Positions 4,552-23,586 of a DNA stretch of 33,014 bases are shown in pieces. Each line of letters begins with the position of its first letter. Within the stretch, counting starts at the first letter, position 1. The position numbers and the translations under genes were made by a program. The notes beneath the pieces are model-generated. The model saw nothing but the letters and a program-made list of their open reading frames with translations. It did no database searches and was not told the origin of the DNA. The DNA lies in assembly GCA_031432545.1 (NCBI GenBank), contig JAVKGX010000016.1, positions 1 to 33,014 on the forward strand. Direction: 5' to 3'. This DNA is from Armatimonadota bacterium (GTDB lineage: Bacteria > Sysuimicrobiota > Sysuimicrobiia > Sysuimicrobiales > Sysuimicrobiaceae).

Positions 4552-4554
4552 GGT

Positions 4555-6057: not shown

Positions 6058-6061
6058 GCGA

Positions 6062-7144
6062 CTATCTCGCGGTGGGGGCCTGTCCTTCGATACCCCGCAG
6101 CAGCCAGTCGAACCCCAGGATCTCTCGCAGTTCCATCGTCTTTCCCGAGGGTACCCGCACCCTCCCGGTCTGGTCGGCCAGCGGTCCCCGGAAAACCTGG
6201 AATGTGCCGTCGGTGATGGCCTGGCGCCGTCGTTCGATGAGCTGGCGGACGTCTGCCGGAACGCTCGGATGCAGCGGCCCAAGAGTCACCACACCGTCTG
6301 CCAGTCCGCCGTAGTAGTCCTCGGACTTAAACTGTCCTGCCAGAATGCCCCGCACGATGGACTCGTTTACCCTTCTCCAATCCCAGATCGTCCCGGTGAG
6401 GTAGGCGTTGGGTGCGAAGCGCTGCATGTTCGATTCGGATCCGATCCCGTACTTCCCGATCTCGGCAGCGGCCAGCAGAGCACTGGGGGTGTCCTGGTGC
6501 TGAGCCACAATGTCGGCGCCGGCATCGAGCAGCGCTTTGGCGGCGGCTTTCTCTTTGGGTGGGTCGTACCAAGTACGAGTCCAGACGACCTTGATCTTAG
6601 CGTCGGGGTTGGTCTCCCACACTCCCAATGCGAAGGCGTTGACGCCTGCCACCACCGTACTGATGGGGTGGGCGGCCACGAACCCTACGACGTTCGTGCG
6701 GGTCATCTTGCCGGCGACCAGACCCGTGAGGTAACGGCCTTCCCAGATCCGGCCGTAGATGGTCTTCACGCGCGGGGCCAGCCCGATCGCCGGCCCGATA
6801 CCGATGATGTAGACGTCCGGGTGCTGGCGGGCAACTTCTAGACTGAATCGCTGGTAGCCGAACGCGGTCGCGAAGAGGATCTTGTAGCCCTGCCGGATGA
6901 GTTGTTCCATCACGCGGCGCACTTCCGTCGTCTCGGGTACGGACTCCACAAACCGCGTGTCGGCCCCCAGCGCACTTTGCAGGTGACGACGGGCCACATC
7001 GTGCTGAAACGTCCAGCCCGCGTCGCCGATGGGTCCGACATAGATGAAGGCTACCTTGGGCCTCTGAGGTGCTGCCCAACCCGTCACGGCGGTAGCCGTC
7101 ATGGCCAACGCCGCCACACACAGCAACAGAGCCAGCCCTCGCAT
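6062..7144 (-). CDS. BMP-family ABC importer substrate-binding protein
   Basis: A 360-residue secreted protein. A signal peptide (MRGLALLLCVAALAMTATA, cleavage near AVTGWA) precedes the BMP fold, which opens with RPKVAFIYVGPIGDAGWTF. The same opening is seen in the BMP (PnrA/Med-like) family that binds nucleosides and related heterocycles. There is no lipobox cysteine, so it is probably free in the periplasm rather than a lipoprotein. A GGAGGG ribosome site lies close before the ATG. It is the first gene of the BMP importer, which continues with the double ATPase four bases on. Ligand unknown; a purine, ureide or hydantoin-like ring is possible from context. Confidence 0.92.
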   Translation of the reverse strand: MRGLALLLCVAALAMTATAVTGWAAPQRPKVAFIYVGPIGDAGWTFQHDVARRHLQSALGADTRFVESVPETTEVRRVMEQLIRQGYKILFATAFGYQRFSLEVARQHPDVYIIGIGPAIGLAPRVKTIYGRIWEGRYLTGLVAGKMTRTNVVGFVAAHPISTVVAGVNAFALGVWETNPDAKIKVVWTRTWYDPPKEKAAAKALLDAGADIVAQHQDTPSALLAAAEIGKYGIGSESNMQRFAPNAYLTGTIWDWRRVNESIVRGILAGQFKSEDYYGGLADGVVTLGPLHPSVPADVRQLIERRRQAITDGTFQVFRGPLADQTGRVRVPSGKTMELREILGFDWLLRGIEGQAPTAR

Positions 7145-7190
7145 TGCGATCCCTCCTCTGCGGGGATGTTCCCTCCCAACTCTCCGATGA

Positions 7191-7943
7191 CTAGTCCTCG
7201 ATGAACGCCACCACGCGGCACGGGCTCGCCTCGCCGCCGACGAATCTCCACGGGAAGCAGCCGATCAGGCAACGCCGGTTCAGCACGTGCGCGATGTCGC
7301 CACCGATGTTCTCGACGTGCAGGACGCCGGCGCGGAACGGGACGTGGTGCATCACGAACAGGTCCTCCTCGCCGAACGCCTCTTCGGGATCGCGCCCGGT
7401 CCGCCGGCGATACTCGCGGGCGATGTCCGACCGCTTGTACCGTATGCTGGTGTTCATGGGGTGGTCGGCCGAGGCGCAGTCGAATCCGGTCCAGCGGAAT
7501 TCCATCTCCGCGATCCACTCGGCCAGCTCCCGGCCGCCTCCGGGATGGCGGCAGAAGTACCGGACTTCGTCCTCGTGCGGGCAGCCGTTGTAGTACCGCG
7601 ACCAACCCGTGTGGTAGATGAGGATGTCCCCCTTGCGGACCTCGGCCCTTCGGGTGATGTGCTCCGGGCGGATGACCGTCCAGTCGTCCATGTCTTCGCT
7701 GATGTCGACGATCACGCCCTCGCCGATCAACCGATCTAGGGCGACGCTCGCGATGTCGGCCCCGCCGGACAGGATGTGCATCTCGGCGTCCAGGTGGGTC
7801 CCCACGTGCAGAGGCATCTCGACGTACTGGCTCACGATGCCGTGGGTGTGGTGGCGCTGGATGTAGGAGATTTTGGGGGACGGATATCCTACCCAACCCG
7901 GCGTGTGTATGCTGAACGGTTGCGTCAGATCGACCGCTCTCAT
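7191..7943 (-). CDS. Cyclase-family metal-dependent hydrolase (kynurenine formamidase-like)
   Basis: A 250-residue protein with the cyclase-family metal motif HVGTHLDAEMH (His46, His50, Asp52, His56). The usual proline before the last histidine is a glutamate here (position 54). Members hydrolyse N-formyl, lactam or cyclic amide bonds (arylformamidase, isatin hydrolase). The start at 7943 has GGAGG at good distance. The gene sits between the second binding protein of the taurine-type importer (48 bases) and the BMP binding protein (46 bases). In this setting it is a good candidate for ring opening or deformylation of an imported compound, but the substrate cannot be read from sequence. Confidence 0.88.
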   Translation of the reverse strand: MRAVDLTQPFSIHTPGWVGYPSPKISYIQRHHTHGIVSQYVEMPLHVGTHLDAEMHILSGGADIASVALDRLIGEGVIVDISEDMDDWTVIRPEHITRRAEVRKGDILIYHTGWSRYYNGCPHEDEVRYFCRHPGGGRELAEWIAEMEFRWTGFDCASADHPMNTSIRYKRSDIAREYRRRTGRDPEEAFGEEDLFVMHHVPFRAGVLHVENIGGDIAHVLNRRCLIGCFPWRFVGGEASPCRVVAFIED

Positions 7944-7991
7944 CGATCGCCTCCGCTGGCGCGTGCGTCCAGCCTCAAGGCCGGAAGTGAC

Positions 7992-8966
7992 CTACGGCCG
8001 GTACAGCCAGCCGGCGTCCGGCATCCGATCGACCAATCCCGCCTCGACGGCCAGGCGAAACATCTGCTCGATGACCGCTCGCTCCCGACCCCAAGCCGGG
8101 TAGACCTCGAACTGGAGCCGGCGGAACAACACCGCTTCCTTGAAAGCACCGCGCGGCAAACCCGTCGTCCGCGCAACGATCCCGTCGGCCTGGTCGAGGT
8201 GGGTGCGCACGTAGCCGGCAAAGTCTGTGAACATTTTCAGCGCCGCTGGCACACCGGCCGGGTTCCGGCGGATCGCATCCTCACGCAGCCACAAGATCAG
8301 TTCCCATCCGTCGGTGCCCGTCATCTCGCGCCAGGCCCTCCGACCATTGAAGACGATCCGGTAGGCGGGACTGTCGCGCATGGCCAAAGTGGCAACGGGT
8401 TCGATTAGCATGGCCGCATCGACCCGCCCCGCCGCGAGTTGCGCTCGGGCGAGGGGGAAGGGTGCCTGTACGACCGTGACGTCACGGCGCAGATCCAAAC
8501 CCTTCCAGCGTGCGTAGATCGAGGTCAGCTGAAACTGTTGCGATCCTATGTCCGCGGCCAGAGTCTTGCCGCGCAGGTCGGTGAGGGATCGCACGTCGGG
8601 ATGCCGGGCGATGATGACGAGGTCACTGGGGCGGACCAGCGTGCCCACGGCTTTGATCGGCACGCCTTCCAGGCGCATCCGCTGGAGCACGTTGGGGCCG
8701 CCCGCCAGGGTGTCCACCTCTCCGGTCGCGATGCCGGCGTAGTAGGCGGAGATGGTCGCGTAGTTTGCCGTGTCGAGTTCGATCCCGTTGGCGCGATCGA
8801 GGCCCGCCTCGCGGATCACCTGGGCCACGAACGTACTGATGGCGGGGAAGGACAACACCCCCATGCGCAGGCGCGTAGGGTGGGGTGGGGCCGAGGGGGC
8901 CGAGGGGGCGACCGCCAAGACCAGCAACAGCGTGCAGGCCCATACCCGTTTGGCAAGCGTGCTCAT
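7992..8966 (-). CDS. NitT/TauT-type ABC substrate-binding protein (SsuA/NMT1-like), copy 2
   Basis: A 324-residue secreted protein with a signal peptide (MSTLAKRVWACTLLLVLA, cleavage near APSAPSAPP) and no lipobox. The mature part fits the SsuA/NMT1 fold: GVLSFPAISTFVAQVI, ATGEVDTLAGG, LTDLRGKTLAADIGS and ARAQLAAGRVDAAML. It is clearly a paralogue of the binding protein at 10579-11553: the lengths are equal, the C-termini are similar (RIVFNGRRAWREMTG against RIIFNGRAGWRELTG), and both end in YRP. It overlaps the ATPase gene by ATGA. Two binding proteins around one permease/ATPase pair suggest two related ligands or different affinities. Confidence 0.9.
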   Translation of the reverse strand: MSTLAKRVWACTLLLVLAVAPSAPSAPPHPTRLRMGVLSFPAISTFVAQVIREAGLDRANGIELDTANYATISAYYAGIATGEVDTLAGGPNVLQRMRLEGVPIKAVGTLVRPSDLVIIARHPDVRSLTDLRGKTLAADIGSQQFQLTSIYARWKGLDLRRDVTVVQAPFPLARAQLAAGRVDAAMLIEPVATLAMRDSPAYRIVFNGRRAWREMTGTDGWELILWLREDAIRRNPAGVPAALKMFTDFAGYVRTHLDQADGIVARTTGLPRGAFKEAVLFRRLQFEVYPAWGRERAVIEQMFRLAVEAGLVDRMPDAGWLYRP

Positions 8967-9751
8967 CCGGACACCTCGTGCAGCTCCATGTCGACGGCCG
9001 GTCGGCCTGTGTTCAGCATCGATTGAATGACCTGCCGGGTTCGGACTCGGTCGCCTCCCAGGAACGCATCGGGGCGGATGTCGGCGAGCAGACGGCCGGG
9101 TTGCCCGAACACCAGCACCCGTTCTCCCACCGAGAGGGCTTCCTCGATCTGATGGGTCACCAGGAATACTGTCTTGGCGTCGGCGCGGGCGAGCGACAGA
9201 AAGTCCTGGCGGATTTGCGCGGCGGTGACTTCGTCGAGGTGCCCGAATGCCTCGTCGGCGACGAGGATCTCAGGATTCACCGCGAACGCGCGCGCCAGGG
9301 CAACCCGCTGCCGCATGCCGCCCGACAGCTCGTTGGGAAACGCGTGGAGAAACCCCCCCAGGCCGAGTTTCACCAACCAGTGCTGGGCCAGGTGACGGCG
9401 CCGCTGCGGCTCGGTGCCAAGGATCTCCAACGGCAGCTCGACGTTGGCCAGTACGGTGCGCCACGGCAGGAGCCGGTCCTGCTGGAAGACCGCAGCGATG
9501 CGGCCACGGAAGAAGGCGAAGTCGCGGTACGGTTCGCGGCCGTCGACTTCCACTTTCCCAGCGGTCGGCGCCTCGAGGCCGATGAGGATGTTGAGAAAGG
9601 TGGACTTCCCGCACCCGGTTTGGCCCACGATCGCAACGACTTCACCTCGGCGGACCGCGAAATCCAGACCCTGGAGGGCCACGACGCTCCGCCCGGTACC
9701 CTTCTGACGGTAGACCTTGCTCAGGCCTTGGACCCGAACGTCCATCGTCAT
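8963..9751 (-). CDS. NitT/TauT-type ABC importer ATPase (SsuB/TauB-like)
   Basis: A 262-residue ATPase with Walker A GQTGCGKST near residue 43, Q-loop VFQQDRLLPWRTV, signature LSGGMRQRVALARAF and Walker B ILVADEAFGHLDEVT. The QDRLLPW segment is typical of the taurine, nitrate and sulfonate importer family. The first ATG shares one base with the stop of the permease gene (TGATG); a second ATG two codons on is possible. Downstream it overlaps a binding-protein gene by ATGA, so permease, ATPase and binding protein 2 are translated in step. Confidence 0.93.
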   Translation of the reverse strand: MTMDVRVQGLSKVYRQKGTGRSVVALQGLDFAVRRGEVVAIVGQTGCGKSTFLNILIGLEAPTAGKVEVDGREPYRDFAFFRGRIAAVFQQDRLLPWRTVLANVELPLEILGTEPQRRRHLAQHWLVKLGLGGFLHAFPNELSGGMRQRVALARAFAVNPEILVADEAFGHLDEVTAAQIRQDFLSLARADAKTVFLVTHQIEEALSVGERVLVFGQPGRLLADIRPDAFLGGDRVRTRQVIQSMLNTGRPAVDMELHEVSG

Positions 9752-10545
9752 CAGTCCCGCCAGACCAGGACTCGCCGCTCCACTCCGCCGACGACCACCT
9801 GCGTGGCCATCAACATCACGACCAAGACGACCGTCCAGGCGAAGACGTCGGCCACCGAAAAGAGCTCCTGCGCGATGACCAAGCCGTAGCCGATGCCGCT
9901 GGTGGCCCCGACCAGTTCCGCCATCGTAACCACGCGGATCGCCAGACTGAGGTTGATCTTCCAGGACGTCAGGATGGCCGGCAGGGTCGCCGGCAGGATG
10001 AGTTTGGAGAAGTACTGGACCGGCGTTGGGCGAAAGGAGCGAAGCATGTCACGCAGTTCGCGGGGAACGCCTTGCATGGCATCCAGGACATCGATCAGAA
10101 AGATCGGCGCGCAGACGACCACCAACACGAAAGCGATCCTCAACTCGACGCCGCGGAACCACAAGACGGAGAACAGGATCCAGCAGACCACCGGGACCGC
10201 CATCACCAGCCGGACGAGGGGCATCAGGTACCGGTCGAGGACGCGCCACTGGAACATGGCCACGGCGAGCGCGATGCCGCCGACGAACGAGACGACGAGG
10301 GCCAGCAAGACACGTCCCGCGGTGACGACGACGAATTCGTACCGAAGCCCTTGGAGGGCAGCCCAGATGCGTTCCCACGACGGGACGACGTAAGGTGGGA
10401 GCACCGCAGACGCCACCTGCCATGCGACGGCGAAGGCAGCGAGCGCAACCAGCGTCTCGTGCGGAACCCGCGCCAGGCGGGCACCCGGGGGCTGCACGGC
10501 TTCCGGGATCTCGACGGCGACGGTTGCGGGCGTCTGACGACTCAT
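9751..10545 (-). CDS. NitT/TauT-type ABC importer permease (SsuC/TauC-like)
   Basis: A 264-residue membrane protein with about six hydrophobic segments. The coupling region ELRDMLRSFRPTPVQYFSKLILPATLPAILTSW matches BPD_transp_1 permeases of the nitrate/taurine/sulfonate type, here with the usual EAA-like glycine replaced. I prefer the ATG at 10545, with GAAGGGG spaced well before it, over a GTG three codons upstream at 10554. It follows the first binding protein by 33 bases and overlaps the ATPase by one base. Confidence 0.9.
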   Translation of the reverse strand: MSRQTPATVAVEIPEAVQPPGARLARVPHETLVALAAFAVAWQVASAVLPPYVVPSWERIWAALQGLRYEFVVVTAGRVLLALVVSFVGGIALAVAMFQWRVLDRYLMPLVRLVMAVPVVCWILFSVLWFRGVELRIAFVLVVVCAPIFLIDVLDAMQGVPRELRDMLRSFRPTPVQYFSKLILPATLPAILTSWKINLSLAIRVVTMAELVGATSGIGYGLVIAQELFSVADVFAWTVVLVVMLMATQVVVGGVERRVLVWRD

Positions 10546-10578
10546 CGGTTTCACCCCTTCCCCGACCGGCTCGCCTTC

Positions 10579-11553
10579 CTAGGGCCGGTACACGATGGCC
10601 CTGTCGGGGAGGCGCGGCAGCAGACCGACGTCCACTCCGGCTCGAAACATCTCCCACAGGGCCTCGGTGACCGCCGGTTGCCATGCGGGCCGCACATCGT
10701 AGACGATCCGACGGAACAGCACTGCCTCCTTGAGAACTCCCGCCGGCAAGTTCAGAGACGAAGCGACCACGCGGTCGCTGGCATCTAGATTCGTGCGTAG
10801 GTACGCCTGACCGTCCTGGAACGTCTTGATCAGACGATCGACCGCAGCGGGGTTGCGCCGGATGGCGTCGTCCCGCATGTGTACCACGAGCTGCCATCCG
10901 TCCTTCCCCGTCAACTCGCGCCAGCCGGCTCGGCCGTTGAAGATGATGCGATAGTCTTTGCTGTCGCGGATGGTCAACGTCGCCGTCGGCTCCCAGGTCA
11001 TCGCCGCATCGACACGTCCCGCGGCGAGTTGCGCGCGTGCGAGGGGCGGACCGGCCTGGATCACGTTGACATCGGTGCGCAGGTCCAGGCCTTTGCTCTT
11101 GGCGTAGATGGACAGGATCGCGAACTCCGATGATCCCATGTCGGCAGCCAGGCTCCGGCCGCGCAGGTCCGTGATCGTGCGCACCTGGGGGTTGCGCGAG
11201 ATCACCACCATCGCGGACAGGCCCACGTAGGAGGCCAGGATCCGCACCGGTGCTCCTTCGAGTCGCAGCCTCTGGTACACATGCGGCCCACCCACCCCTG
11301 CATCCACTTCGCCGGTGGCCTGCGCCGCGTAGAACCCGGAGACCGCGCTGAAGGAGATCGGCTCCAAGTCCAGGCCGTTGCTGCGATCGAGCTCTGCGGC
11401 TTTGACGATGTCCACCATCACCGAGACCAGGGAAGGGAAGGCCAGCCGGGCGATGCGAACCCGGATGCGGTCGGGCGGCGCTGCCTGCCCATGGTGGGCA
11501 CCAACCGCCAGGAACAGCGCGAGGACCACGATCGTAAGCCGTACGTGCCTCAT
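10579..11553 (-). CDS. NitT/TauT-type ABC substrate-binding protein (SsuA/NMT1-like), copy 1
   Basis: A 324-residue secreted protein. The signal peptide is MRHVRLTIVVLALFLAVG with cleavage near HHGQAA, and there is no lipobox. The mature domain shows IARLAFPSLVSVMVDI, ATGEVDAGVGG, ITDLRGRSLAADMGS and ARAQLAAGRVDAAMTWEP, as in the SsuA/NMT1 family. The start at 11553 is fixed by GGGAGGTGG just upstream and by the signal peptide; the longer open frame before it has no support. It is a paralogue of 7992-8966. A 77-base gap with a hairpin separates it from the upstream M20 gene. Confidence 0.9.
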   Translation of the reverse strand: MRHVRLTIVVLALFLAVGAHHGQAAPPDRIRVRIARLAFPSLVSVMVDIVKAAELDRSNGLDLEPISFSAVSGFYAAQATGEVDAGVGGPHVYQRLRLEGAPVRILASYVGLSAMVVISRNPQVRTITDLRGRSLAADMGSSEFAILSIYAKSKGLDLRTDVNVIQAGPPLARAQLAAGRVDAAMTWEPTATLTIRDSKDYRIIFNGRAGWRELTGKDGWQLVVHMRDDAIRRNPAAVDRLIKTFQDGQAYLRTNLDASDRVVASSLNLPAGVLKEAVLFRRIVYDVRPAWQPAVTEALWEMFRAGVDVGLLPRLPDRAIVYRP

Positions 11554-11573
11554 TTCCCACCTCCCTTGCCAGG

Positions 11574-11603
11574 CCGGGCATCGGCGACCTGAAGCCGACC
11601 CGG
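11574..11603 (-). other. Intercistronic GC-rich hairpin between the M20 and binding-protein genes
   Basis: In the 77-base gap a stem of five plus four base pairs can form (CCGGG with CCCGG and CGGC with GCCG), with a small internal loop and an eight-base loop. It lies about 20 bases ahead of the binding-protein start, with no T-tract following. It may protect or split the transcript to favour the binding protein, or partly end it. The structure is seen; the role is a guess. Confidence 0.35.
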
Positions 11604-11630
11604 CTGGTATCCGCTCGCCCGACCGAGGCC

Positions 11631-12932
11631 TCATGTCGGAGCTGCCGAGCACACGGCCGGGGGCCGCGGCTGGTTGCAGACGTCGAGAGCGATGAGTGCG
11701 TACGCCCTTGCCGCGTCCACCATGTCGTCGATGCGCATCGCGAACTGACCTCCGCCGACGCTCGGCCCCGGCCCGTAGATGACCGCGGGGATGCCCAGCG
11801 CATTGAAGACGTTGATGTCCCGCCACATGCTCGTGTACGGAGGGATCGCCGCCGGGGGCGCACCGCCTCGCACCGCGGCGTGCGCGCGCTGGATCGACTG
11901 CACCAGCGGCTCGACCCCGCGCCCCTCACAGCCTGGCCGATAGACGTACAGCTCGACTTCGCCGTGCACGCCTGCGCCGCTCAGCACGGTCCGCAACTCG
12001 TCCCGTACGTCCAGCGGATTCTGCGCCGGGGTGATGCGTACGTCGACGTAGAGTGCGCATACCCCTGCGGTCTTCGTGATCTTCCACGGCACCCCGCCCC
12101 GGATGGCACCGATGTTGACCTTCGGGACGACCACACCGCCCGGGCCCTCATACCGGTGGACCTGCTCGTAGCGGACCGCCCATGCCTCTATGTGTTCGAT
12201 CAGCTTCGCGGCGCGGACGATTGCGCTGGGGCTGCTTTCCGGAGGTGTCGGGCGGGGGATGTAGGGCGTGTACAGGGGGAAGTCGTTTCCGAAGACGGTC
12301 ACCTTGAAGAAGGCCTTGCCGGCCTCGACCCAGCCCACGCCGAAGTCCGTTCCCTCGGCGACCAGGGCGTAGTCCGCGACCGTGCCGTGTTCGACGAGGT
12401 AGCGTGCCCCGGTCTCCTTGGCGACGTATCGTGGCGCTTCGAACTCGTCGACGGGTTCCTGCCCGATCTCGCCCGCGACCATCGTGAGGAGCAGGTCTCC
12501 CCGCAGGGGGATGCCGCTTTCGTGCAGAGCCTTGGCGGCGACGAGCCAACAGGCCATGGGGCCCTTGTTGTTCACGATGCCGTTGCCGATGAGGTGGTCA
12601 CCCTCGCGGCGTCCGGTGTGGAAGACGGGGTCTGCGGCGCGGCGGGTCGTCCAGATCTCCTCCTTGGCGATGGTGGTGTCCATGTGACTGTTGAAGATGA
12701 GGCTGCGGCCGTCCCCGGTTCCCGGGATCCGCGCGACGACGTTGAACCGATCCGGCAGGAGCCCCACGCGCCGAGGGGACAGCCCCCATCGGGTGAGGGT
12801 ATCGGTGAGGTACTCGCCGACGGCCCCCTCCTGGCCGGTGGGGCTGTCGATGTTCGCCAAGTCGAGCGCCAGCGCCACCAGGTCTTCGCGGTCGATGCGG
12901 TCGAGGACCCGCGCCGCCTGTTCTTCCTCCAT
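11631..12932 (-). CDS. M20-family peptidase/deacylase homologue with altered active site
   Basis: A 433-residue protein with the ArgE/DapE/M20 layout. The SHMDTT motif (His83, Asp85) is intact, as are the probable ligands Glu155 (GEIGQEP) and Glu193 (LVAEGTD). The metal-bridging aspartate position is Asn121 (GNGIVNNKGPMA). The general-base glutamate position is Gly154, and the C-terminal histidine position is Met399 (QFAMRIDD). I recall similar NNKGP/GEIGQ proteins, so this may be a conserved divergent subfamily rather than decay. Ordinary M20 members hydrolyse N-acyl or N-carbamoyl amino acids, a natural last step after hydantoin opening, but the chemistry here is uncertain. It starts three bases after the cupin gene. 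Confidence 0.85.
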   Translation of the reverse strand: MEEEQAARVLDRIDREDLVALALDLANIDSPTGQEGAVGEYLTDTLTRWGLSPRRVGLLPDRFNVVARIPGTGDGRSLIFNSHMDTTIAKEEIWTTRRAADPVFHTGRREGDHLIGNGIVNNKGPMACWLVAAKALHESGIPLRGDLLLTMVAGEIGQEPVDEFEAPRYVAKETGARYLVEHGTVADYALVAEGTDFGVGWVEAGKAFFKVTVFGNDFPLYTPYIPRPTPPESSPSAIVRAAKLIEHIEAWAVRYEQVHRYEGPGGVVVPKVNIGAIRGGVPWKITKTAGVCALYVDVRITPAQNPLDVRDELRTVLSGAGVHGEVELYVYRPGCEGRGVEPLVQSIQRAHAAVRGGAPPAAIPPYTSMWRDINVFNALGIPAVIYGPGPSVGGGQFAMRIDDMVDAARAYALIALDVCNQPRPPAVCSAAPT

Positions 12933-12935
12933 GCC

Positions 12936-13358
12936 TCACCTCGCAACCGGTGGTGGGATTCCTCCCGGCGGCTCGCCCACGACGCCCGAAGCCTCGTACA
13001 ACGACGGATCCGGAGGGCACGGGCCACCCACGCACACCAACCCGCGTTGTCCTGCTCGGATGCGGTAAGGTGTGCCCTCCGTGACGTGGAACATCGCACC
13101 CTCGGCGATGGGCTGTTCCTGCCCGGTCTGCTCGTCGAGGACGAACCCGCAGCCCCGGATCGCACAGTAGACGGCCTCTGACTCTGCATGCAGGAGCCGT
13201 ACGGTCCGTGTTCCCGGCAGCAAGGAGATGAGGTGGAGGCTCCTGTGGCGTGCGCCGACGCCGGGCCACACGAGTGCGACGAACCTGCCGTCCCCCTCCA
13301 GCAGGGGGAGTCGGGGCGCACCATCTTCGTTCAGCACCTGGATTCCGTGGCGGCTCAT
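12936..13358 (-). CDS. Small cupin-fold protein lacking most metal ligands
   Basis: A 140-residue cupin-like protein. Motif 1 (LLHAESEAVYCAIRG) keeps only one histidine, and motif 2 (EGTPYRIRAG) has tyrosine where the last histidine is expected, so a normal metal site is unlikely. The C-terminal part holds VCVGGPCPPD, the same short motif as in the cupin at 1115-1495, pointing to common descent. The gene overlaps the XRE-cupin regulator stop (ATGA) and is followed three bases later by the M20 gene. A sensor or partner role beside the regulator is possible, but no function is assigned. Confidence 0.8.
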   Translation of the reverse strand: MSRHGIQVLNEDGAPRLPLLEGDGRFVALVWPGVGARHRSLHLISLLPGTRTVRLLHAESEAVYCAIRGCGFVLDEQTGQEQPIAEGAMFHVTEGTPYRIRAGQRGLVCVGGPCPPDPSLYEASGVVGEPPGGIPPPVAR

Positions 13359-14008: not shown

Positions 14009-14020
14009 GGGCGGACTCCT

Positions 14021-14034
14021 TTCAATATATTGAA
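14021..14034. promoter_or_regulatory. Perfect palindromic operator candidate TTCAATATATTGAA
   Basis: The 14 bases TTCAATATATTGAA are their own reverse complement and lie right before the ribosome site of the leftward XRE-cupin gene. XRE-cupin regulators bind short A+T-rich palindromes, so this is the natural site for autorepression. Its A+T content stands out strongly from the surroundings. Confidence 0.65.
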
Positions 14035-14040
14035 CTTGTG

Positions 14041-14054
14041 TTGAATATAAAGTA
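14041..14054. promoter_or_regulatory. Degenerate second copy of the palindromic operator
   Basis: TTGAATATAAAGTA matches the palindrome at 14021-14034 in 10 of 14 positions. It begins exactly 20 bases away, close to two turns of DNA, so two regulator dimers could bind the same face. Read on the minus strand it also contains TATATT, a possible -10 element for the leftward transcript. Confidence 0.45.
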
Positions 14055-14282
14055 CGACGCGGGGCCGGGGACTCCTGCTGGGCCGCGCAAATCGGCCAAA
14101 TGCCCGAGGGAGGATGCCGTGGGGGAAGCCGTCGGACCGCGCAGGACCCCGAGGGCTCGACGGCCTATCCGAGGTTCACGCCAGGAAGAGGGGGGTATTT
14201 TCCCGTGCGTTTTCAGTCCAGCAGGAATTTGTGAAGCTATGTTGAAAGAGCAGGCTAAGCACGAACGGACGGAGGGGCAGCG

Positions 14283-14837: not shown

Positions 14838-16889
14838 ATGCGGGTTGCCTCCGATATCGGCGGGACCTTCACGGATCTGGTCTACCTCGACGAGCGCTCG
14901 GGGACGCTGAGGACAGCAAAGGTGGACACTACGCCACCGCAGTTTGAGCGCGGAGTGATGGACTCCCTCCGGAAGGCCGGGGTAGAGGGCCACATGATCG
15001 CCTACCTCGTCCATGGAACGACCGTCATCATCAATGCCGTCACCGAGCGCAGGGGAGCGCGCACGGGGCTGATCACCACGCGGGGCTTCCGCGACGTACT
15101 GGAGATCGGGCGCGCGAACCGACCGGACCTGTACAACCTCAGGTACCGGAAGCCAAAACCCTTTGTTCCTCGCTACCTGCGACTGGAGGTCACGGAGCGG
15201 ATCTCCCATAAGGGTGAGGTGCTCGTCCCTCTCTCTGAGGAAGATGTGCGTGATGCAGTCCGGCGCCTGAAAGCCGAAGGTGTGGAAGCGATCGCGATCT
15301 GCTTTCTCCATTCTTACGCGAACCCCGCGCACGAGCGGCGCGCGGCCCAGATCGCACGCGAGGAATGGCCTGACGTGTTCGTCACCTCTTCGCATGAAAT
15401 CACACGAGAGTGGCGCGAGTACGAGCGTACGAGCACCGCGGTGCTGAATGCCTACGTTCAGCCGTCGGCAGCTCGCTACCTGGATGCGCTCGAGCGAGAC
15501 CTGCGCGACAGCGGCGTGGTGGGTACGCTGTACGTCATGCAGAGCAACGGGGGCACAGCGACCTTCGACAGTGCCCGCAGGGCGCCCATCGGGATGGTGG
15601 AGTCGGGTCCGGTAGCCGGTGTCCTGGGCACCCTCGCCCTCGGGCGGTTGCTGGGCGAAACGAATCTGATCTCTCTGGACATCGGCGGTACGACCGCGAA
15701 GTGCACCCTTATCGACCGAGGCGAAGTTCGCGTCACGACGGAGTACAAGATCGAGTGGAGTCGTACGTTTCCCGGATACCCCCTTAAGGTGCCGGTCGTC
15801 GACATCGTAGAGATCGGGGCGGGTGGCGGGAGCATCGCCTGGCTGGACGACGCAGGTGCCCTGCACGTCGGCCCCCAGAGCGCGGGGGCGCTGCCCGGCC
15901 CGGCGTGCTATAGCCGAGGGGGCCAGGCGCCGACCGTCACCGACTCCAACCTCGTCGCCGGCCGCCTGAACCCCGGGTACTTCCTCGGAGGCGAGATTCC
16001 GCTTCAGGTGAGTCATGCGCGGGCGGCCCTAGGGCCGATCGCCGAACGTTTCGGCATCGACGAGATCCAGGCTGCCCTGGGGGTCCTCCGTCTGGCCAAC
16101 GCCAACATGGTCAACGCCCTCAAGCTGGTGTCGATACACCGTGGCTACGACCCGCGGGACTTCACACTCGTTGCGTTCGGCGGGGGAGGCGGGATGCACG
16201 CTGCGTCGCTCGCACGTGAGCTCCACATCCACCGCGTTCTCATTCCCGTTGAGCCGGCCGTGTTCTCCGCGTGGGGCATGTTGATGACCGATCTGCGCTA
16301 CGACCTCGTGCGTACGCACATCGAACGCACCGACGGGGCGAGCCCTCAGGACCTCGATCGACGCTGGAGCGAGATGGAGGAGGCTGCGGTGCGGTACTTC
16401 GCAAACGAACAGATGGACAGCAGCCGCCTCGTGTTCCGCAGATACACGGACATGCGCTATGCAGGGCAGGAACACACCGTGAAGGTACCGTTCCCCGCCG
16501 GTCCCGTAACCACGGAGACGGTTCGGGAAGTGGAGGAAAAGTTTCATGCACTCCATGAGCAGCACTACACGTTCCGGCTTTCGAACCCGATCGAGTTCGT
16601 GAACTTCCATCTCACGACGTTCGGCACGGTCGACAAGCCGTCGATTCCCGAGATTGACGGCACGCGGAACGCGGTACGTGCCAGGAAAGACAAGCGCCGC
16701 GTGGAGTTCGACGGCCACGGGGCGCTGGAGACCCCGATCTACGAACGGGGTCGGCTCGGGCCCGGTGCGGTCGTTCGGGGCCCTGCGATCATCGAGGAAC
16801 CGGCATCGACGACCGTCCTCTTCCCCGGAGACCGGCTTCGGGTGGACCCCTACGGCAACCTCCTGATAGAGGTCTCGGTGCGGGGGTGA
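14838..16889 (+). CDS. hyuA: Hydantoinase/oxoprolinase A subunit (HyuA-like, ATP-dependent)
   Basis: A 683-residue protein of the usual HyuA length. The N-terminal domain opens with the nucleotide-binding motif SDIGGTFTDLVYL and has VHGTTVIINAVTERRGA. The central domain has SLDIGGTTAKCTL and EIGAGGGSIAWLD, the ASKHA-fold ATP elements. The C-terminal domain follows from about residue 500. With HyuB it forms an ATP-driven ring opener for hydantoins, 5-oxoproline, lactams or similar compounds; relatives include acetone and acetophenone carboxylases. GAGGAGG precedes the ATG. The stop shares bases with the start of the hydantoinase B gene (TGATG), as expected for subunits. The exact substrate is not readable. 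Confidence 0.93.
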   Translation: MRVASDIGGTFTDLVYLDERSGTLRTAKVDTTPPQFERGVMDSLRKAGVEGHMIAYLVHGTTVIINAVTERRGARTGLITTRGFRDVLEIGRANRPDLYNLRYRKPKPFVPRYLRLEVTERISHKGEVLVPLSEEDVRDAVRRLKAEGVEAIAICFLHSYANPAHERRAAQIAREEWPDVFVTSSHEITREWREYERTSTAVLNAYVQPSAARYLDALERDLRDSGVVGTLYVMQSNGGTATFDSARRAPIGMVESGPVAGVLGTLALGRLLGETNLISLDIGGTTAKCTLIDRGEVRVTTEYKIEWSRTFPGYPLKVPVVDIVEIGAGGGSIAWLDDAGALHVGPQSAGALPGPACYSRGGQAPTVTDSNLVAGRLNPGYFLGGEIPLQVSHARAALGPIAERFGIDEIQAALGVLRLANANMVNALKLVSIHRGYDPRDFTLVAFGGGGGMHAASLARELHIHRVLIPVEPAVFSAWGMLMTDLRYDLVRTHIERTDGASPQDLDRRWSEMEEAAVRYFANEQMDSSRLVFRRYTDMRYAGQEHTVKVPFPAGPVTTETVREVEEKFHALHEQHYTFRLSNPIEFVNFHLTTFGTVDKPSIPEIDGTRNAVRARKDKRRVEFDGHGALETPIYERGRLGPGAVVRGPAIIEEPASTTVLFPGDRLRVDPYGNLLIEVSVRG

Positions 16890-18670
16890 TGCGCATGGCA
16901 CAGAGGGCCAGGAAGACCCGAACCGCCCCACGGAATCGTCGAGAGCGGACGGTGGATCCGTTCACCCTTGAGATCATCAAGAACTCGCTGGTGGCGATCG
17001 GCGATGAAATGTTCGTCGCTTTGCAGCGTACCAGCATGTCGACCATCATCTACGAGGTGCTGGATTACGCAACCGGCTTGACCGACGCGCGGGGGCAGTT
17101 GATCACTCAGGGCAACGGCGTGACGCTATTCCTTGGCACGCTATCGCACGCCGTCCAGTACACGCTCGAGAAGTTCGGGGACCGTTTGCGTCCTGGCGAC
17201 ATCGTGATCACGAACGACCCGTACACGGGGGGTGGGACGCACCTGTCCGATGTGTCGTTGGTCATGCCGGTCTTCTACGACGGACGGATCGTCGCATTTG
17301 TGGCCAACAAAGCTCACTGGACCGAAATCGGTGGAAAGGATGCCGGGTCGTGGACGACGGACGCCACGGAGGTGTACCAGGAGGGGCTACAGTTCCCGTG
17401 CGTCCGGCTGTTCGAGGAAGGGCGACCCGTCCAGAGTTTGCTCGACCTCATTGAGGCGAACGTACGTCTTCCGCAGATGACTTTGGGAGACCTGTGGGCG
17501 GGCGTGGCCGCGCTGCGGGTGGGGGAACAGCGAGTGCGGGAACTGTGTGACAAGTACGGCGTGGACACGGTGTTGCGTGCGGTGGACAAACTCCTAGACG
17601 ACGGCGATCGGCTCACACGGTTGGCACTGGGTGCTCTGCCGAAGGGTACCTTCGAAGCCGAGGATTGGATTGACGACGACGGCATCGGCAACGGACCGTT
17701 CCCCGTGCGCGTGCGCGTGACGATCAGCGACGAGGAGTTCGTCTGCGACTTCACGGGCACCCACGCGCAAGTTCCCGGCCCCGTGAACTGCACATATACA
17801 GCGCTGGTCAGCGGAGTACGGGCGATGTACCTGGCGGTGACGAACCCTTCGAATCCGGCGATCAACGACGGTGCGTTTCGTTCCCTGCGTGTGGTGTGCC
17901 CGCCACGCACGATCTTTTCGGCCGAGCGACCGGCACCGGTGTCGACGTACTGGGAGACCATGCTATACGTCGCGGATCTGATCTGGAAGGCACTGGCGCC
18001 AGTGATCCCGGATCGCGCCACCGCAGGGCACTTCCTGTCGGTGTGTGGGACGATTGTCGCCGGCCCCCATCCCGACACCGGAGAGTTGTTCCTGCTCGTC
18101 GAGCCCCTTGCCGGGGGATGGGGTGCAGGGGTCGACAAGGACGGGGAGAGTGGCCTCGTGTGCATCGGGGACGGGGAGACGTACATGATCCCCATCGAAG
18201 TTGCCGAGACCCGCTACGGGGTGCGCGTCGAACAGTACGCCTTCCACACCGACGACGGGGGGGCGGGCCGTTTTCGGGGCGGTAAGGGTCTCATCCGCGA
18301 CTACCGGATCATGTCCGACGAAGCCTACCTCACGACCACGTTCGGCCGCCACAAGTTTCGCCCCTGGGGTGTGGACGGAGGCCGAGAGGGATCACCGAAC
18401 TACGTTCGCATCTTCCATGCTGATGGCCGCGAGTTGGTCTTCGGCAAGACGGCGCGCTACCGCCTCAAGAAAGGCGACATGGCACGCCTGGTGACGGGGA
18501 CTGGGGGTGGGTGGGGCGATCCGAGGCAGCGCGCGCCCGAAAGAGTGACCGAGGACGTCCGCAACGGCTACATCACGCCTGCGCAGGCGGAGCAGGATTA
18601 CGGGCTCGCCTTCGGCTCGGGTACAGGCGTCGCCCAGCCGCTGGTGCGCGAGACCACGGGGGTGCGCTGA
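16889..18670 (+). CDS. hyuB: Hydantoinase/oxoprolinase B subunit (HyuB-like), copy 1
   Basis: A 593-residue protein (alternative starts GTG 16886 and ATG 16895). The body begins DPFTLEIIKNSLVAIGDEMF. Likely metal ligands known from related caprolactamase-type enzymes are present: aspartate in EVLDYATGLTD, histidine and aspartate in GGGTHLSDVS, and histidine in NKAHWTEIGG. The last motif is unusual, since many HyuB proteins have AHH-x-D there. The C-terminal part holds GGWGAGVDKDGESGLV and VTGTGGGWGDP. It overlaps HyuA by one base and the next cupin by one base, so it is the HyuA partner. A paralogue lies at 25383-27167. Confidence 0.93.
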   Translation: MRMAQRARKTRTAPRNRRERTVDPFTLEIIKNSLVAIGDEMFVALQRTSMSTIIYEVLDYATGLTDARGQLITQGNGVTLFLGTLSHAVQYTLEKFGDRLRPGDIVITNDPYTGGGTHLSDVSLVMPVFYDGRIVAFVANKAHWTEIGGKDAGSWTTDATEVYQEGLQFPCVRLFEEGRPVQSLLDLIEANVRLPQMTLGDLWAGVAALRVGEQRVRELCDKYGVDTVLRAVDKLLDDGDRLTRLALGALPKGTFEAEDWIDDDGIGNGPFPVRVRVTISDEEFVCDFTGTHAQVPGPVNCTYTALVSGVRAMYLAVTNPSNPAINDGAFRSLRVVCPPRTIFSAERPAPVSTYWETMLYVADLIWKALAPVIPDRATAGHFLSVCGTIVAGPHPDTGELFLLVEPLAGGWGAGVDKDGESGLVCIGDGETYMIPIEVAETRYGVRVEQYAFHTDDGGAGRFRGGKGLIRDYRIMSDEAYLTTTFGRHKFRPWGVDGGREGSPNYVRIFHADGRELVFGKTARYRLKKGDMARLVTGTGGGWGDPRQRAPERVTEDVRNGYITPAQAEQDYGLAFGSGTGVAQPLVRETTGVR

Positions 18671-18993
18671 TGCGGATCGTTCAGGCGGACGGAAGGGAAG
18701 GGGTGCAGGTTCTGATGGCGGTGGACGACCCCGTTCGCGGCCGGATGGCTGCAGGAGTCGCGCGGTTCTCGCCCCAGACCCGCCATCCAATAGAGGGGAC
18801 ATCCGTCCATGAGGCGCACGAGACGTTCTTCGTCCTGAAAGGGCGTTTGCTCGTTAGTACGGCCGAGGGCGAGCAGGCGGTAGCGGAGGGAGATTTCGTC
18901 TACATCGCACCCGGGGAGGAGCACTGGGTGGCCAACGAGTGGGAGCATCCCGCAGAGGTGGTGTGGGTTCTGGTCGGCTCGACGGAAGTATGA
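18670..18993 (+). CDS. Small single-domain cupin protein
   Basis: A 107-residue cupin. The start ATG shares one base with the HyuB stop (TGATG). Motif 1 is SVHEAHETFFVLKG, with histidines spaced HxxH followed by glutamate. Motif 2 is EGDFVYIAPGEEHWVANEW, with the closing histidine, so metal binding is likely. Tight coupling to hydantoinase A/B suggests it acts on the same pathway, perhaps as an isomerase or aminohydrolase of a ring-opened product. No family-specific feature supports a firm name. Confidence 0.85.
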   Translation: MRIVQADGREGVQVLMAVDDPVRGRMAAGVARFSPQTRHPIEGTSVHEAHETFFVLKGRLLVSTAEGEQAVAEGDFVYIAPGEEHWVANEWEHPAEVVWVLVGSTEV

Positions 18994-19030
18994 GCGATCC
19001 AGCAGGCCGACAAGCGATGGAGAAGGGGGG

Positions 19031-20662
19031 ATGGGGATGTCCAGACGCTCGATCGCTGTCATCGGGATCGTCACAGTTGCGATCGTCGTCGCTTTCGTAC
19101 TTGCGCGGAGGCAGCCGGGACCGGAGGTGGCGGCACGGGTGTTACGCATGACCGAGTCGCCTCCGACCCTGATTGACCCGGCACTCGGCACCGACTTTTC
19201 CAGCACAACCTCACACGTGAACCTCTACGACGCCCTGGTCTGGCCGGGAACTGACGGGGAGATCGAACCGCACCTCGCGGAGAGCTGGGAAGCCTCGCCG
19301 GACGGGCTCGTGTGGACCTTCCGTCTGCGACGTGGGGTTCAGTTCCACCATGGGCACGGCGAGCTCACCGCGAACGACGTTGTGTTCACGTTCCGGCGGC
19401 TGATAGCCATCGGCGAAGGCTTTTCCTACTTGTACCAGGGACGGGTGGCGAACGTTGAGGCTGTCGACACCCACACGGTCCGCTTCACGCTGTCGCGTCC
19501 TTTCGGGCCGTTCCTGGCGACACTGCTGCGTCTGGCCATCGTGAGCGAAGCGTGCGTACGGGCCAACAAGAAGGACGGGCCCTACGGCGAGTGGGGCGAT
19601 TACGGTCGAGACTACCTGACGACCAACGACTGTGGGTCGGGACCGTACGTCATGCGTGAGCGCGTTGTCGGTGAGTCCTTCGCCGCCGAGCGTTTCGCGG
19701 ATTACTGGATTCCTTTCCCGGCCGGCGCGCCGGACCGTTTCGTTCTCATGGAGACGACGGAGGCTGCGACCGTACGGACGCTGATGGAGCGGCGAGAGCT
19801 GGAGATCACGGATCAGTGGCAGTCCTTGGAAGCGTACAACACCCTGCAGCAAATCCAGGGCGTGGACGTCGCGAGGATCGCCGACGGATCGATGCTCTAC
19901 TTGATGCTCCACAACCGTAAGGCACCGACCGACGATGTCAACGTCCGGAGGGCACTCGCGTGGGCGATGAACTACCAGCAGGTGACAGACAGCATCTTCC
20001 CCGGGACGAGCCAGGCACGCGGCCCTGTAGCGGCGACTTTGCCCGGCCACGACGCCACCGTCTTTCAGTACAGATTTGATCTGGAGCGCGCCCGCGCGGA
20101 ACTCGCACAGTCACGGTACGCCGACAGGATCGGGCAGATGCCGATCGACTACTGCTGGACCGCGGAGGTCCCCGACCTGGAGAAGATCGCGCTCATGTTC
20201 CAGGCAGATCTGGCCAGGATCGGCGTGAGGGTCAACATCGTGAGCCTGCCGTGGCTGCGGATGATCGAGGCCGCGTCGCGGCCGGAGACGACGTGCCACA
20301 TCATGAGCATCTGGGTGGCGCCGCACTATCCCGAGGCCGGATCCATCCTGGAATCCAAGTACCATTCCCGCGCAACGGGTACCTGGGAGCAGACGGAGTG
20401 GGTGCGGGACCCGGAGCTCGATCGGATGATCGACGACGCGCTCGCGACAATCGACCGGCAGGAGAGGTTTCGTAAGTACGCTGAGATTCAGCGGCGGATC
20501 GTGGAGATGGCCCCCACGATTTGGGTCTATGAGCAGGTCTCGCGCCACGCGTACCAGTCCGGCTACGTCGAGTGGCCGCAGGCAAAGAGGCCGATCCCCG
20601 TCATGGGTTACAACATGGCGGCGCGACTCATCCAGGTTTACCCGGAGCGGGCCAGACGGTAG
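19031..20662 (+). CDS. Dipeptide/oligopeptide-type ABC substrate-binding protein (SBP_bac_5, DppA/OppA-like)
   Basis: A 543-residue family 5 binding protein. After a short basic N-terminus a hydrophobic segment (IAVIGIVTVAIVVAFVLA) acts as signal or uncleaved anchor; there is no lipobox. The mature part shows PTLIDPALGTDF, LAESWEASPDGLVWTFRLRRGVQFHHG, LTANDVVFTFRRL and VRRALAWAMNYQQV, all standard for the family. GGAG lies eight bases before the ATG at 19031; an ATG two codons on is possible. It opens the five-gene importer that follows the hydantoinase genes. Family members bring in peptides, but also opines, nickel chelates and other modified amino acids. Confidence 0.92.
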   Translation: MGMSRRSIAVIGIVTVAIVVAFVLARRQPGPEVAARVLRMTESPPTLIDPALGTDFSSTTSHVNLYDALVWPGTDGEIEPHLAESWEASPDGLVWTFRLRRGVQFHHGHGELTANDVVFTFRRLIAIGEGFSYLYQGRVANVEAVDTHTVRFTLSRPFGPFLATLLRLAIVSEACVRANKKDGPYGEWGDYGRDYLTTNDCGSGPYVMRERVVGESFAAERFADYWIPFPAGAPDRFVLMETTEAATVRTLMERRELEITDQWQSLEAYNTLQQIQGVDVARIADGSMLYLMLHNRKAPTDDVNVRRALAWAMNYQQVTDSIFPGTSQARGPVAATLPGHDATVFQYRFDLERARAELAQSRYADRIGQMPIDYCWTAEVPDLEKIALMFQADLARIGVRVNIVSLPWLRMIEAASRPETTCHIMSIWVAPHYPEAGSILESKYHSRATGTWEQTEWVRDPELDRMIDDALATIDRQERFRKYAEIQRRIVEMAPTIWVYEQVSRHAYQSGYVEWPQAKRPIPVMGYNMAARLIQVYPERARR

Positions 20663-20692
20663 CGGGAGGACGGCAACGAAGAAGAACCCGCC

Positions 20693-21709
20693 ATGGTAGC
20701 GTACCTGGCTTGGCGGCTCGTGCACCTGATCTTCGTGCTGCTCGGGCTGTCGATCCTGATCTTCCTGATCACGCGGGTGATGCCGGGGGATCCGGCGCGT
20801 CTGGCTCTGGGAGCCCGGGCCTCGCCCGAGGCGGTGGAAGCCTTCCGGGCCCGTATGGGACTGGACCAACCCCTGCACGTGCAGTACCATCGGTGGCTGG
20901 CCCACGCCTTGCGCGGGGACATGGGGATGTCGATCTTTACGCGGCGTCCCGTAGCCCGCGATGTCCGCGAGTTCCTGCCCGCTACCCTGGAGCTGATGTT
21001 GTTCGCCGGGGTGGTTATGATCGTCGGAGGCATTCTTCTCGGCATCCTGGCTGCCTGGCACGCCAACTCTTGGATCGACAACGCCGTACGTCTGCTGGCC
21101 TACGTCGGGGTCGTCACACCGGCGTTCGTCTTCGCAATCGTGCTTCTCCTTGTCTTCGGGTACCTCCTCGACCTGCTGCCGACGGCCGGGCGCCTGAGCG
21201 CCGGGGTGCGCCCGCCACCTGTCGTCACGGGGATGATCACCGTCGACAGCCTGCTCGCCGGGCAAGTGGCCACGGCGTTCAATGCCCTGAAACATATGCT
21301 GCTGCCCGGATTGGCGCTGGCGATGGCCGGCCTCTCGCAACAAGCTCGGATCACCCGCGCCAGCATGATCGACAACTTGCAGCGCGACTACATTCTTGCA
21401 GCCCGAGCGGCCGGTATCCCGGAACGCGTGGTCATGACCAAGTATCTTCTGAAGCCCTCCCTGATTCCCACGGTCTCCATCTTGGGGTTGGACTTCGCCG
21501 CGCTCATGGCCAATGCGTTTCTGGTGGAAATGATCTTCAACTGGCCCGGGCTTTCCCGCTACGGCGTCAACGCGATGCTCAGCAAAGACCTAAACGCGAT
21601 TACGGCCGTGGTGCTTGTGATCGGCGTCGTGTTCATGTCCGTCAACATCGTCGTCGATCTGATCGTCTCCTACCTCGACCCGCGAATCCGCTTGAGGAGC
21701 GGGCAGTGA
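20693..21709 (+). CDS. Dipeptide-type ABC importer permease (DppB-like)
   Basis: A 338-residue membrane permease. The N-terminal RLVHLIFVLLGLSILIFLITRVMPGDPARL is diagnostic of DppB/OppB. The coupling loop ILAARAAGIPERVVMTKYLLKPSLIPTVSILG carries the EAA motif, and about six membrane segments are visible. It follows the binding protein by 30 bases and overlaps the second permease (GTGA). Confidence 0.94.
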   Translation: MVAYLAWRLVHLIFVLLGLSILIFLITRVMPGDPARLALGARASPEAVEAFRARMGLDQPLHVQYHRWLAHALRGDMGMSIFTRRPVARDVREFLPATLELMLFAGVVMIVGGILLGILAAWHANSWIDNAVRLLAYVGVVTPAFVFAIVLLLVFGYLLDLLPTAGRLSAGVRPPPVVTGMITVDSLLAGQVATAFNALKHMLLPGLALAMAGLSQQARITRASMIDNLQRDYILAARAAGIPERVVMTKYLLKPSLIPTVSILGLDFAALMANAFLVEMIFNWPGLSRYGVNAMLSKDLNAITAVVLVIGVVFMSVNIVVDLIVSYLDPRIRLRSGQ

Positions 21710-22599
21710 GCACAACCTCCGTGGCTTCCAAGTCGTTTGTGGCCCAGCGGGCGGATGCGCTGGGCCGAGGGTGGTACAGATTCTCGCGCAACGTGCTGTC
21801 CGTTGCGGGTCTGGCGATCGTCACCTCGATCATCTTTGCTGCCATCTTCGCGCCGTACGTCGCTCCGTACCCCCACCATGCTGCCGCCTACGTGGACTTT
21901 AGCAGCGCGAGCCAGCCTCCCAGCTGGCAGCATCCATTCGGGACGGACAGGGTCGGCCGCGACGTGCTGTCCCGGGTGGTCTTCGGATATCGATCTGCGC
22001 TGTTGATGGGAATCGTCGTGCTCGCGCTGGTGGTGCCCGTAGGTGTTTTCCTTGGCTTGGTGGCTGGGTATTTGCGTGGGAGCTTTCTGGACGCCGTGAT
22101 CATGCGCACGACGGACGTCTTTTTGTCTGTGCCGCCACTGGTGCTGGCTTTGGCCATGACCTCGTTGCTGGCGCCGACCCTGCTCAACGCGATGATCGCG
22201 GTATCGTTGATGTGGTGGCCCTGGTACACGCGTCTGGTTTACGGTATGGCATCGTCTCTACGGAACGAGTTTTTCGTCCAGGCTGCGGAACTCACCGGCG
22301 CGGGCAGGGCCCACATCCTGTTTCGGGAGTTGCTCCCGAACTGCGTATCGCCCATCTTGACAAAGATGACGCTCGACATGGGCTGGGTGATCCTGATCGG
22401 GGCGGCCTTGAGCTTCGTAGGACTGGGGGAGCAGCCGCCCCGGCCGGCGCTGGGGACGATGGTGAGCGAAGGCGCCCGGTACCTGCCGGACCTGTGGTGG
22501 CTGAGCCTCTTTCCCGGGCTTGCGATCATGGTCGTCGTGCTGGGCTTCAACCTGTTGGGTGACGGCATCCGCGATTGGCTCGCGCGGGAGGAGGTCTGA
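21706..22599 (+). CDS. Dipeptide-type ABC importer permease (DppC-like)
   Basis: A 297-residue permease starting at GTG, which overlaps the DppB-like stop (GTGA) and has GAGGAG upstream. HPFGTDRVGRDVLSRVVFG, FLSVPPLVLALAM and the EAA loop QAAELTGAGRAHILFRELLPN identify DppC/OppC. The upstream extension of the same open frame overlaps the DppB-like gene and is not coding. It pairs with the DppB-like protein in the membrane, and the ATPase gene begins directly after its stop. Confidence 0.94.
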   Translation: MSTTSVASKSFVAQRADALGRGWYRFSRNVLSVAGLAIVTSIIFAAIFAPYVAPYPHHAAAYVDFSSASQPPSWQHPFGTDRVGRDVLSRVVFGYRSALLMGIVVLALVVPVGVFLGLVAGYLRGSFLDAVIMRTTDVFLSVPPLVLALAMTSLLAPTLLNAMIAVSLMWWPWYTRLVYGMASSLRNEFFVQAAELTGAGRAHILFRELLPNCVSPILTKMTLDMGWVILIGAALSFVGLGEQPPRPALGTMVSEGARYLPDLWWLSLFPGLAIMVVVLGFNLLGDGIRDWLAREEV

Positions 22600-23586
22600 G
22601 TGGCTGCCCCACTGCTGGCGATCCGCGACCTGCACGTAGCTTTCGAGGTCTACGGAGGTGCACTGCGGGTCGTGGACGGCGTCGGCTTGGAGGTGTTGGA
22701 GGGCGAGAAGGTCGGGCTCGTAGGCGAGACCGGGTGTGGGAAGACGACGACGATGAAGGCGGTGATGGGACTCCTGCCGCGACCGCCGGCGCACATCACG
22801 GCGGGTCAGGTTCTGTTCGACGGGCGCGACGTGTTGCGCATGCCTTCTCAACAGCTGCGCGCTCTGCGCGGACGGCAACTCGCCATGATCTTCCAGGACC
22901 CGACGGCCGCCTTGAATCCCGTTTTCACCATCGGAGAGCAGATGATGGATGTAGCCCGGTACGGTCGTGACAGAGTATCGGAGTCCGAAGCCAGGGCCCG
23001 GGTTCTGTCGGCGCTGGAGGAGGTAGCCCTGCCGGATCCCGCCCGCATCATGCGCGCGTATCCATTCCAGTTAAGCGGGGGGATGCGCCAGCGCGTATGC
23101 ATCGCGATGGCTCTGATCAACCGGCCGAGGCTGCTAATCGCCGACGAGCCCGGCACGTCCCTTGACGTGACGATCCAGGACCAGATCCTTCGCCTACTTA
23201 ATCGGATCGTGGAAGACCACAAGATGGCGATCTTGCTAATCAGCCACTCCCTCGGTGTCGTGCGGGAGTGGACCGACCGCGTTTACGTGATGTATGCAGG
23301 AACGATCGCAGAGACGGCTCCGACCCCCAACCTCTTTGCCACGCCGCGTCATCCCTACACGCAGATGCTCATGGGGACGGTTCCCAAGTTGAGCGGTGGC
23401 GGGGTTCCCGAGGGCATCCCCGGCCGCATCCCCGATTACATGCGGCCGCCACCGGGATGTCGTTTCCACCCCCGGTGTCCTCACGTGATGCCGGTGTGCC
23501 GCGAAAAGAGACCGCCCTTGTACGACGTCGGTTCGCGTCACCAGGTGGCTTGCTGTCTCTACCAGGAGGAGCGGCAAACGGCATGA
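22600..23586 (+). CDS. Dipeptide-type ABC importer ATPase (DppD-like)
   Basis: A 328-residue ATPase starting at GTG directly after the permease stop. It has Walker A GETGCGKTTT, Q-loop IFQDPTAALNPVF, signature LSGGMRQRVCIAMAL and Walker B LLIADEPGTSLDVT. The C-terminal oligopeptide-transporter region holds the family's cysteine motif (GCRFHPRCPHVMPVCREKRPP), which may bind an iron-sulfur cluster in relatives. It overlaps the DppF-like gene by ATGA. It acts as a heterodimer with that protein. Confidence 0.94.
   Translation: MAAPLLAIRDLHVAFEVYGGALRVVDGVGLEVLEGEKVGLVGETGCGKTTTMKAVMGLLPRPPAHITAGQVLFDGRDVLRMPSQQLRALRGRQLAMIFQDPTAALNPVFTIGEQMMDVARYGRDRVSESEARARVLSALEEVALPDPARIMRAYPFQLSGGMRQRVCIAMALINRPRLLIADEPGTSLDVTIQDQILRLLNRIVEDHKMAILLISHSLGVVREWTDRVYVMYAGTIAETAPTPNLFATPRHPYTQMLMGTVPKLSGGGVPEGIPGRIPDYMRPPPGCRFHPRCPHVMPVCREKRPPLYDVGSRHQVACCLYQEERQTA

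Follow-up and report, generated by a model that had tools for sequence, protein, structure and literature searches.

XRE-cupin transcription factors have been described in Pseudomonas, where they bind intergenic regions beside their own genes and act as repressors, most likely by promoter occlusion (PMC7901475). A palindromic motif is given there for ErfA, PsdR and PauR, where it could be derived, and the targets are metabolic, including peptide uptake (PMC7901475). More generally, a computed catalogue of XRE motifs describes 223 clusters, with palindromes upstream of the regulators' own genes, and gel-shift confirmed 9 of the 10 motifs tested (PMC12565409). Control of genes in this manner is widespread among bacteria; the details of the locus presented here are new, though not surprising.

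Two divergent XRE-cupin genes

The window, which is the whole analysed stretch of 33,014 nucleotides, contains two regulator genes, R1 and R2, separated by an intergenic region of 274 bp (14009-14282). Both products consist of an N-terminal XRE helix-turn-helix and a C-terminal cupin (Pfam E-values for HTH_3 of 9e-14 in R1 and 1.1e-15 in R2, and for Cupin_2 of 9.8e-17 and 2.1e-20, respectively), the identity between R1 and R2 is 33%, and the recognition helices of the R1 group and the R2 group are unlike. The nearest NCBIfam model of both is PuuR (NF007408), the putrescine regulator of E. coli, which they match over the helix-turn-helix and cupin, yet with 65.1 and 63.4 bits against a cut-off of 211 they are not members; among PDB sequences neither has a relative at 1e-10. 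Domain order, a candidate site beside the own gene, a palindromic motif and (predicted) metabolic targets that include peptide uptake are features in common with ErfA, PsdR and PauR (PMC7901475), whereas in our case two such genes stand head to head with an apparently common half-site, the comparison being one of arrangement.

The genes on either side are summarized in table 1. The match of the small leftward protein to ectoine synthase is weak and below the cut-off. On the right-hand side, hyuA follows R2 in both R2-bearing relatives too. The best model for the HyuA-like protein (14838-16889) is caprolactamase alpha, with 577 bits against a cut-off of 1000, and the scores on acetophenone carboxylase subunits are lower; its substrate is perhaps a lactam. 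A literature search for a hydantoinase regulator with a cupin domain and an operator found no paper.

Table 1. Features of the control region and of the adjoining genes (positions in the window)
Feature	Position	Strand	Basis or content
Leftward genes after R1	3472..13358	-	ectoine-synthase-like small protein, M20 peptidase, NMT1-type ABC importer, cyclase, PnrA(Bmp)-type ABC importer
R1, XRE (HTH_3) + Cupin_2 regulator, 217 aa	13355..14008	-	Pfam
R1 ribosome-binding site AGGAG, 7 nt before ATG	14016..14020	-	read directly
Palindrome TTCAATATATTGAA, candidate R1 operator	14021..14034	none	covers predicted R1 -10
Sigma70-like R1 promoter TTTATA-N16-TATATT (9/12)	14024..14051	-	consensus match only
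Direct-repeat site TGAACTTGTGTTGAA, conserved 11-bp spacing	14031..14045	+	weak match to relatives' matrix
TTGAATATAAAGTA, third TTGAA half-site and predicted R1 -35 TTTATA	14041..14054	none	10/14 match, promoter scan
R2 promoter block (35 bp): box A TTCAGTCCAGCAGGA 14212-14226, box B TGAAGCTATGTTGAA 14232-14246	14212..14246	+	genome counts, alignment
R2, XRE (HTH_3) + Cupin_2 regulator, 180 aa	14283..14825	+	Pfam
Rightward genes after R2	14838..24632	+	hyuA/hyuB, cupin, oligopeptide-type ABC importer

The palindrome and its neighbouring half-sites

The original prediction described a perfect 14-bp palindrome against the ribosome site of the leftward regulator gene, and both statements hold: the sequence at 14021-14034 is its own reverse complement, of the form TTCA-N6-TGAA, and AGGAG at 14020-14016 directly adjoins it. 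The operator of the phage 434 repressor has the same geometry (14 bp, 4-bp arms, 6-bp spacer); its half-site letters are unlike those of the palindrome, and the 434 repressor has no cupin. How surprising is such symmetry in this DNA? Perfect 14-bp palindromes as such are not rare: the window has seven of them against a mean of 4.5 in 30 windows resampled by a first-order Markov model. All the others in the window are G+C-rich, however, and no perfect 14-bp palindrome of the resampled windows had at least 12 A/T. Within the 274-bp intergenic region alone, a perfect 14-bp palindrome was present in 112 of 5000 resamplings (2.2%). The particular sequence is also unique, both in the window (one match at up to three mismatches, shuffle mean 0.07) and in the own genome of 2.19 Mb (one site at up to two mismatches). 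The looser pattern TTCA-N6-TGAA occurs in 16 places of that genome and in 12-29 places per genome examined.

A degenerate copy exactly 20 bases further had been proposed as well, and TTGAATATAAAGTA, which starts at 14041, does equal the palindrome in 10 of 14 bases; a match of this quality anywhere in the 40-bp right flank was reached in 29 of 5000 resamplings. This second sequence is not itself palindromic, and the element common to both is the half-site TTGAA. The intergenic region has four TTCAA/TTGAA half-sites where 0.45 are expected (7 of 5000 resamplings reach four); 14021, 14030 and 14041 are the positions of three of them, with a distance of 11 bp between the half-sites at 14030 and 14041. 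The half-site is a stronger regularity than the 14-bp palindrome plus copy, and the proposed copy makes more sense as a third TTGAA half-site at a distance of 11 bp. Together with the right arm of the palindrome it forms TGAA-N7-TGAA (TGAACTTGTGTTGAA), the first half of which is common to both elements.

The position of the R1 promoter is less clear. A single sigma70-like promoter was reported by the scan, with the -10 hexamer TATATT (14029-14024) inside the palindrome and the -35 hexamer TTTATA (14051-14046) in the second copy. The hexamer of the -10 element predicted in the second copy is present (TATATT at 14049-14044 of the minus strand), but the scan assigned no -35 to it, and the scanned promoter has its -10 in the palindrome. 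A transcript starting 7 nt past the scanned -10 would overlap the ribosome site, which makes the assignment doubtful, and the real R1 promoter may be different and use the other TATATT.

Conservation at orthologous promoters

Among the 42 other genomes of the order, a search at E ≤1e-30 detected an R1 orthologue in four (G026, G020, G017 and G036; identity 53-62%), and R2 orthologues are present in G040 and G031 (58-59%); a search of the phylum covered the same 43 genomes. In the six genomes of the same family that were covered, neither was found. In a sample of 386 genomes no further orthologue of R1 (E ≤1e-30) or of R2 (E ≤1e-35) appeared among the matches listed, with up to 7-8 candidates scored per genome, and a protein scan of named genomes with R1, which detects close relatives only, gave two distant matches (L032 and L033), which did not enter the comparison.

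All 4-mers in inverted and direct orientation with spacers of 0-12 were scanned in the six orthologous upstream regions of 260 bp, the window being excluded. TTCA-N7-TGAA ranked at the top, with five of six promoters, whereas the runner-up reached three; among 100 resampled sets seven reached four promoters and none reached five. The element lies upstream of all four R1 orthologues and of one of the two R2 orthologues, the R2 promoter of G031 having no exact match and a degenerate form instead. Genome-wide it occurs in only 3-9 places per relative genome (completeness being 69% for G040 and 77% for G031). The estimated chance of five in six is 5e-16, or 2e-12 after correction for 3328 inverted combinations of half-site and spacer, a value that would double if direct combinations were added and that treats the promoters as independent, which orthologues strictly are not. 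In the R1 relatives the sites are A+T-rich patches within upstream DNA of 72-75% G+C. Twelve loci of other R1 homologues served as a control set (the weaker-matching L018-L031 were left out); L016 gave no match, L010 and L011 turned out to be the R2 orthologues again, and in the nine that remain, including L015 with just 199 bases upstream, TTCA-N7-TGAA is present once. This one case, L014 (G049), is a distant XRE-cupin homologue (30%) outside the order, where TTCAGTTGTACTGAA lies 291 bases upstream of the helix-turn-helix, and represents either chance or a wider operator code.

Conservation at orthologous promoters, by which the original prediction proposed to be judged, is therefore favourable, but with a spacer of 7 instead of 6. 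The architecture it had in mind, a perfect palindrome with a copy 20 bp away, is not supported as the conserved one: the 6-spaced TTCA/TGAA pair occurs in none of the six orthologous upstream regions of 300 bp, and the 14-bp palindrome as the conserved element itself is ruled out. Half-sites of the window are inverted at N6 and direct at N7; the exact inverted N7 pair, which is the conserved form of the candidate R1 operator, is not among them. The own genome contains two exact TTCA-N7-TGAA sites, on contigs C1 and C17 and none on C16, and eight TGAA-N7-TGAA sites, two of which are in the intergenic region (14031-14045 and 14232-14246). On a 7-spacer matrix that combines the sites of the six relatives, the window scores 6.5 at 14231, which is the ninth score in the window, and 2.2 at 14030, and the best score of the region was equalled in 17% of 2000 resamplings. 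After removal of the centre column the palindrome scores 17.2, a value reached by 0.1% of 2000 resamplings with a matrix that was picked after the palindrome had been seen; the best match to this 6-spacer matrix in the window (21277, score 20.0) is within a permease gene. The candidacy of the palindrome as R1 operator is thus founded on arms identical to the conserved half-sites, on its position and on its uniqueness, and not on exact agreement of spacing. As for earlier records, a literature search for the operator motif found no paper, with print elsewhere possible and the catalogue tables outside the search. TTCA-N7-TGAA may already be among the 223 clusters of that catalogue (PMC12565409).

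The R2 promoter carries a related site of its own, which the original prediction had missed. Its boxes A and B are 20 bp apart from start to start, and box B is a TGAA-N7-TGAA element in the position where the R2 relatives have their sites, which are exact TTCA-N7-TGAA in one of the two and degenerate in G031, as in the window. The sequence TTCAGTnCnnnAGGAnTnnGTnnAGnnnnGTTGAA is common to the three R2 promoters (window, G040 and G031). At up to three mismatches the block occurs once per genome in the three that bear R2 and is absent from the 40 others of the order; the pattern was drawn from these three promoters, so its presence there is by construction and its absence elsewhere is informative. 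Compared pairwise over 37 bases, the promoters agree at best in 26, 25 and 28 positions; 200 resamplings of each pair gave at most 25, a value that the pair of window and G040 (25/37) equals and does not exceed. For the claim that the palindrome is an operator of an XRE-cupin regulator, comparative evidence has thus been gained, the half-site pair being found at all four R1 orthologues and the R2 block at both R2 orthologues.

A model of the control region

Judged from sequence comparison, the palindrome is most likely a docking site of one of the two encoded XRE-cupin regulators. We consider it fairly probable that 14009-14282 is a divergent control region in which R1 would act at the palindrome and R2 at the 35-bp block, each repressing its own operon. 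A dimer of R1 would bind the TTCA...TGAA palindrome, perhaps together with the third half-site at 14041-14045, and in doing so would cover the R1 promoter. The operon that R1 heads, with its importers and its enzymes for cleaving amides or peptides, would stay repressed until the cupin domain binds a small ligand. R2 would act likewise through its two-box block and control hyuAB and the oligopeptide importer. By analogy with the Pseudomonas XRE-cupin factors, the likeliest mechanism is that a dimer occludes the promoter and that a ligand of the cupin domain reverses this. Both repressors probably share one half-site, use local operators and are autoregulating.

The shared half-site makes cross-regulation possible, and the two proteins possibly cross-regulate the divergent catabolic locus. 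On the one hand, R1 and R2 could read the same half-site, the functional sites being the two TGAA-N7-TGAA elements, 201 bp or about 19 helical turns apart, with both operons under joint control and perhaps DNA looping; TTCA-N7-TGAA is common to R1 and R2 orthologues of different genomes, the two window elements are equal at 12 of 15 bases, and TTCAACANANNTTCA, a pattern drawn from both, finds at up to one mismatch just those two sites in the genome. On the other hand, the relatives lack the direct-repeat form, its two representatives score weakly on the relatives' matrix, the recognition helices of the two groups differ, and the Pseudomonas factors showed no shared targets (PMC7901475). We regard joint control through the direct repeats as conceivable and somewhat doubtful.

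That the palindrome is no more than an A+T-rich -10 region belonging to the R1 promoter, with a symmetry due to chance and the real operator at 14031-14045 or elsewhere, is unlikely. The sigma70-like -10 inside it, the resampled regions that hold a perfect palindrome and the spacer that differs by one base from the conserved one would all agree with this explanation, but the arms are exactly the half-site kept in five of six orthologous promoters, and the corresponding sites of the R1 relatives are also A+T-rich patches in G+C-rich DNA. Another TTCA-N7-TGAA in G026, immediately upstream of an SDR gene and distant from R1, could make one suspect a third regulator, global in scope and with its gene in another part of the genome; such a regulator would have many sites, whereas the palindrome is unique in its own genome, and the R2 block and R2 correspond one to one across the 43 genomes, so this explanation is very improbable.

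For the origin of the two local operators, a tentative and rather unlikely scenario is that paralogous repressors of separate ancestral operons with one ancestral code, TTCA-N7-TGAA, were brought head to head in this lineage and that their sites then changed: the site of R1 shifted to a spacer of 6 bp and gained a third half-site that is shared, and TGAA-N7-TGAA arose in both promoters. The result would be a two-input switch of amide/peptide and hydantoinase-type operons. What is gained is a candidate operator for two uncharacterised regulators in an apparently little-studied lineage. As a natural experiment on a small scale, the locus also bears on whether XRE-cupin paralogues retain a common DNA specificity or lose it, and how, with half-site spacing changed by a single base. 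Should each protein bind at both sites, the two catabolic operons would be wired together.

Further sites were seen outside the orthologous promoters. The second TTCA-N7-TGAA of G020, 10 kb from R1, was rejected as an operator, as it lies inside the coding sequence of a short-chain dehydrogenase. The site in G026 (L071:7460-7474, contig C18) precedes a short-chain dehydrogenase gene in a cluster that also has a C-N hydrolase, a DUF1989 and a cyclase-like gene; in sequence and placement it resembles the R1 promoter of the window, a neighbouring gene has a 63% match at window 2-367, and a further member of the R1 regulon is possible. Another XRE-cupin homologue, L012 (G027), has a different perfect inverted repeat, CTATAGAGGAACGTATTCCTCTATAG (11-bp arms, spacer 4), located 23-48 bases before the R1 match begins; it is likely to be an operator of another specificity.
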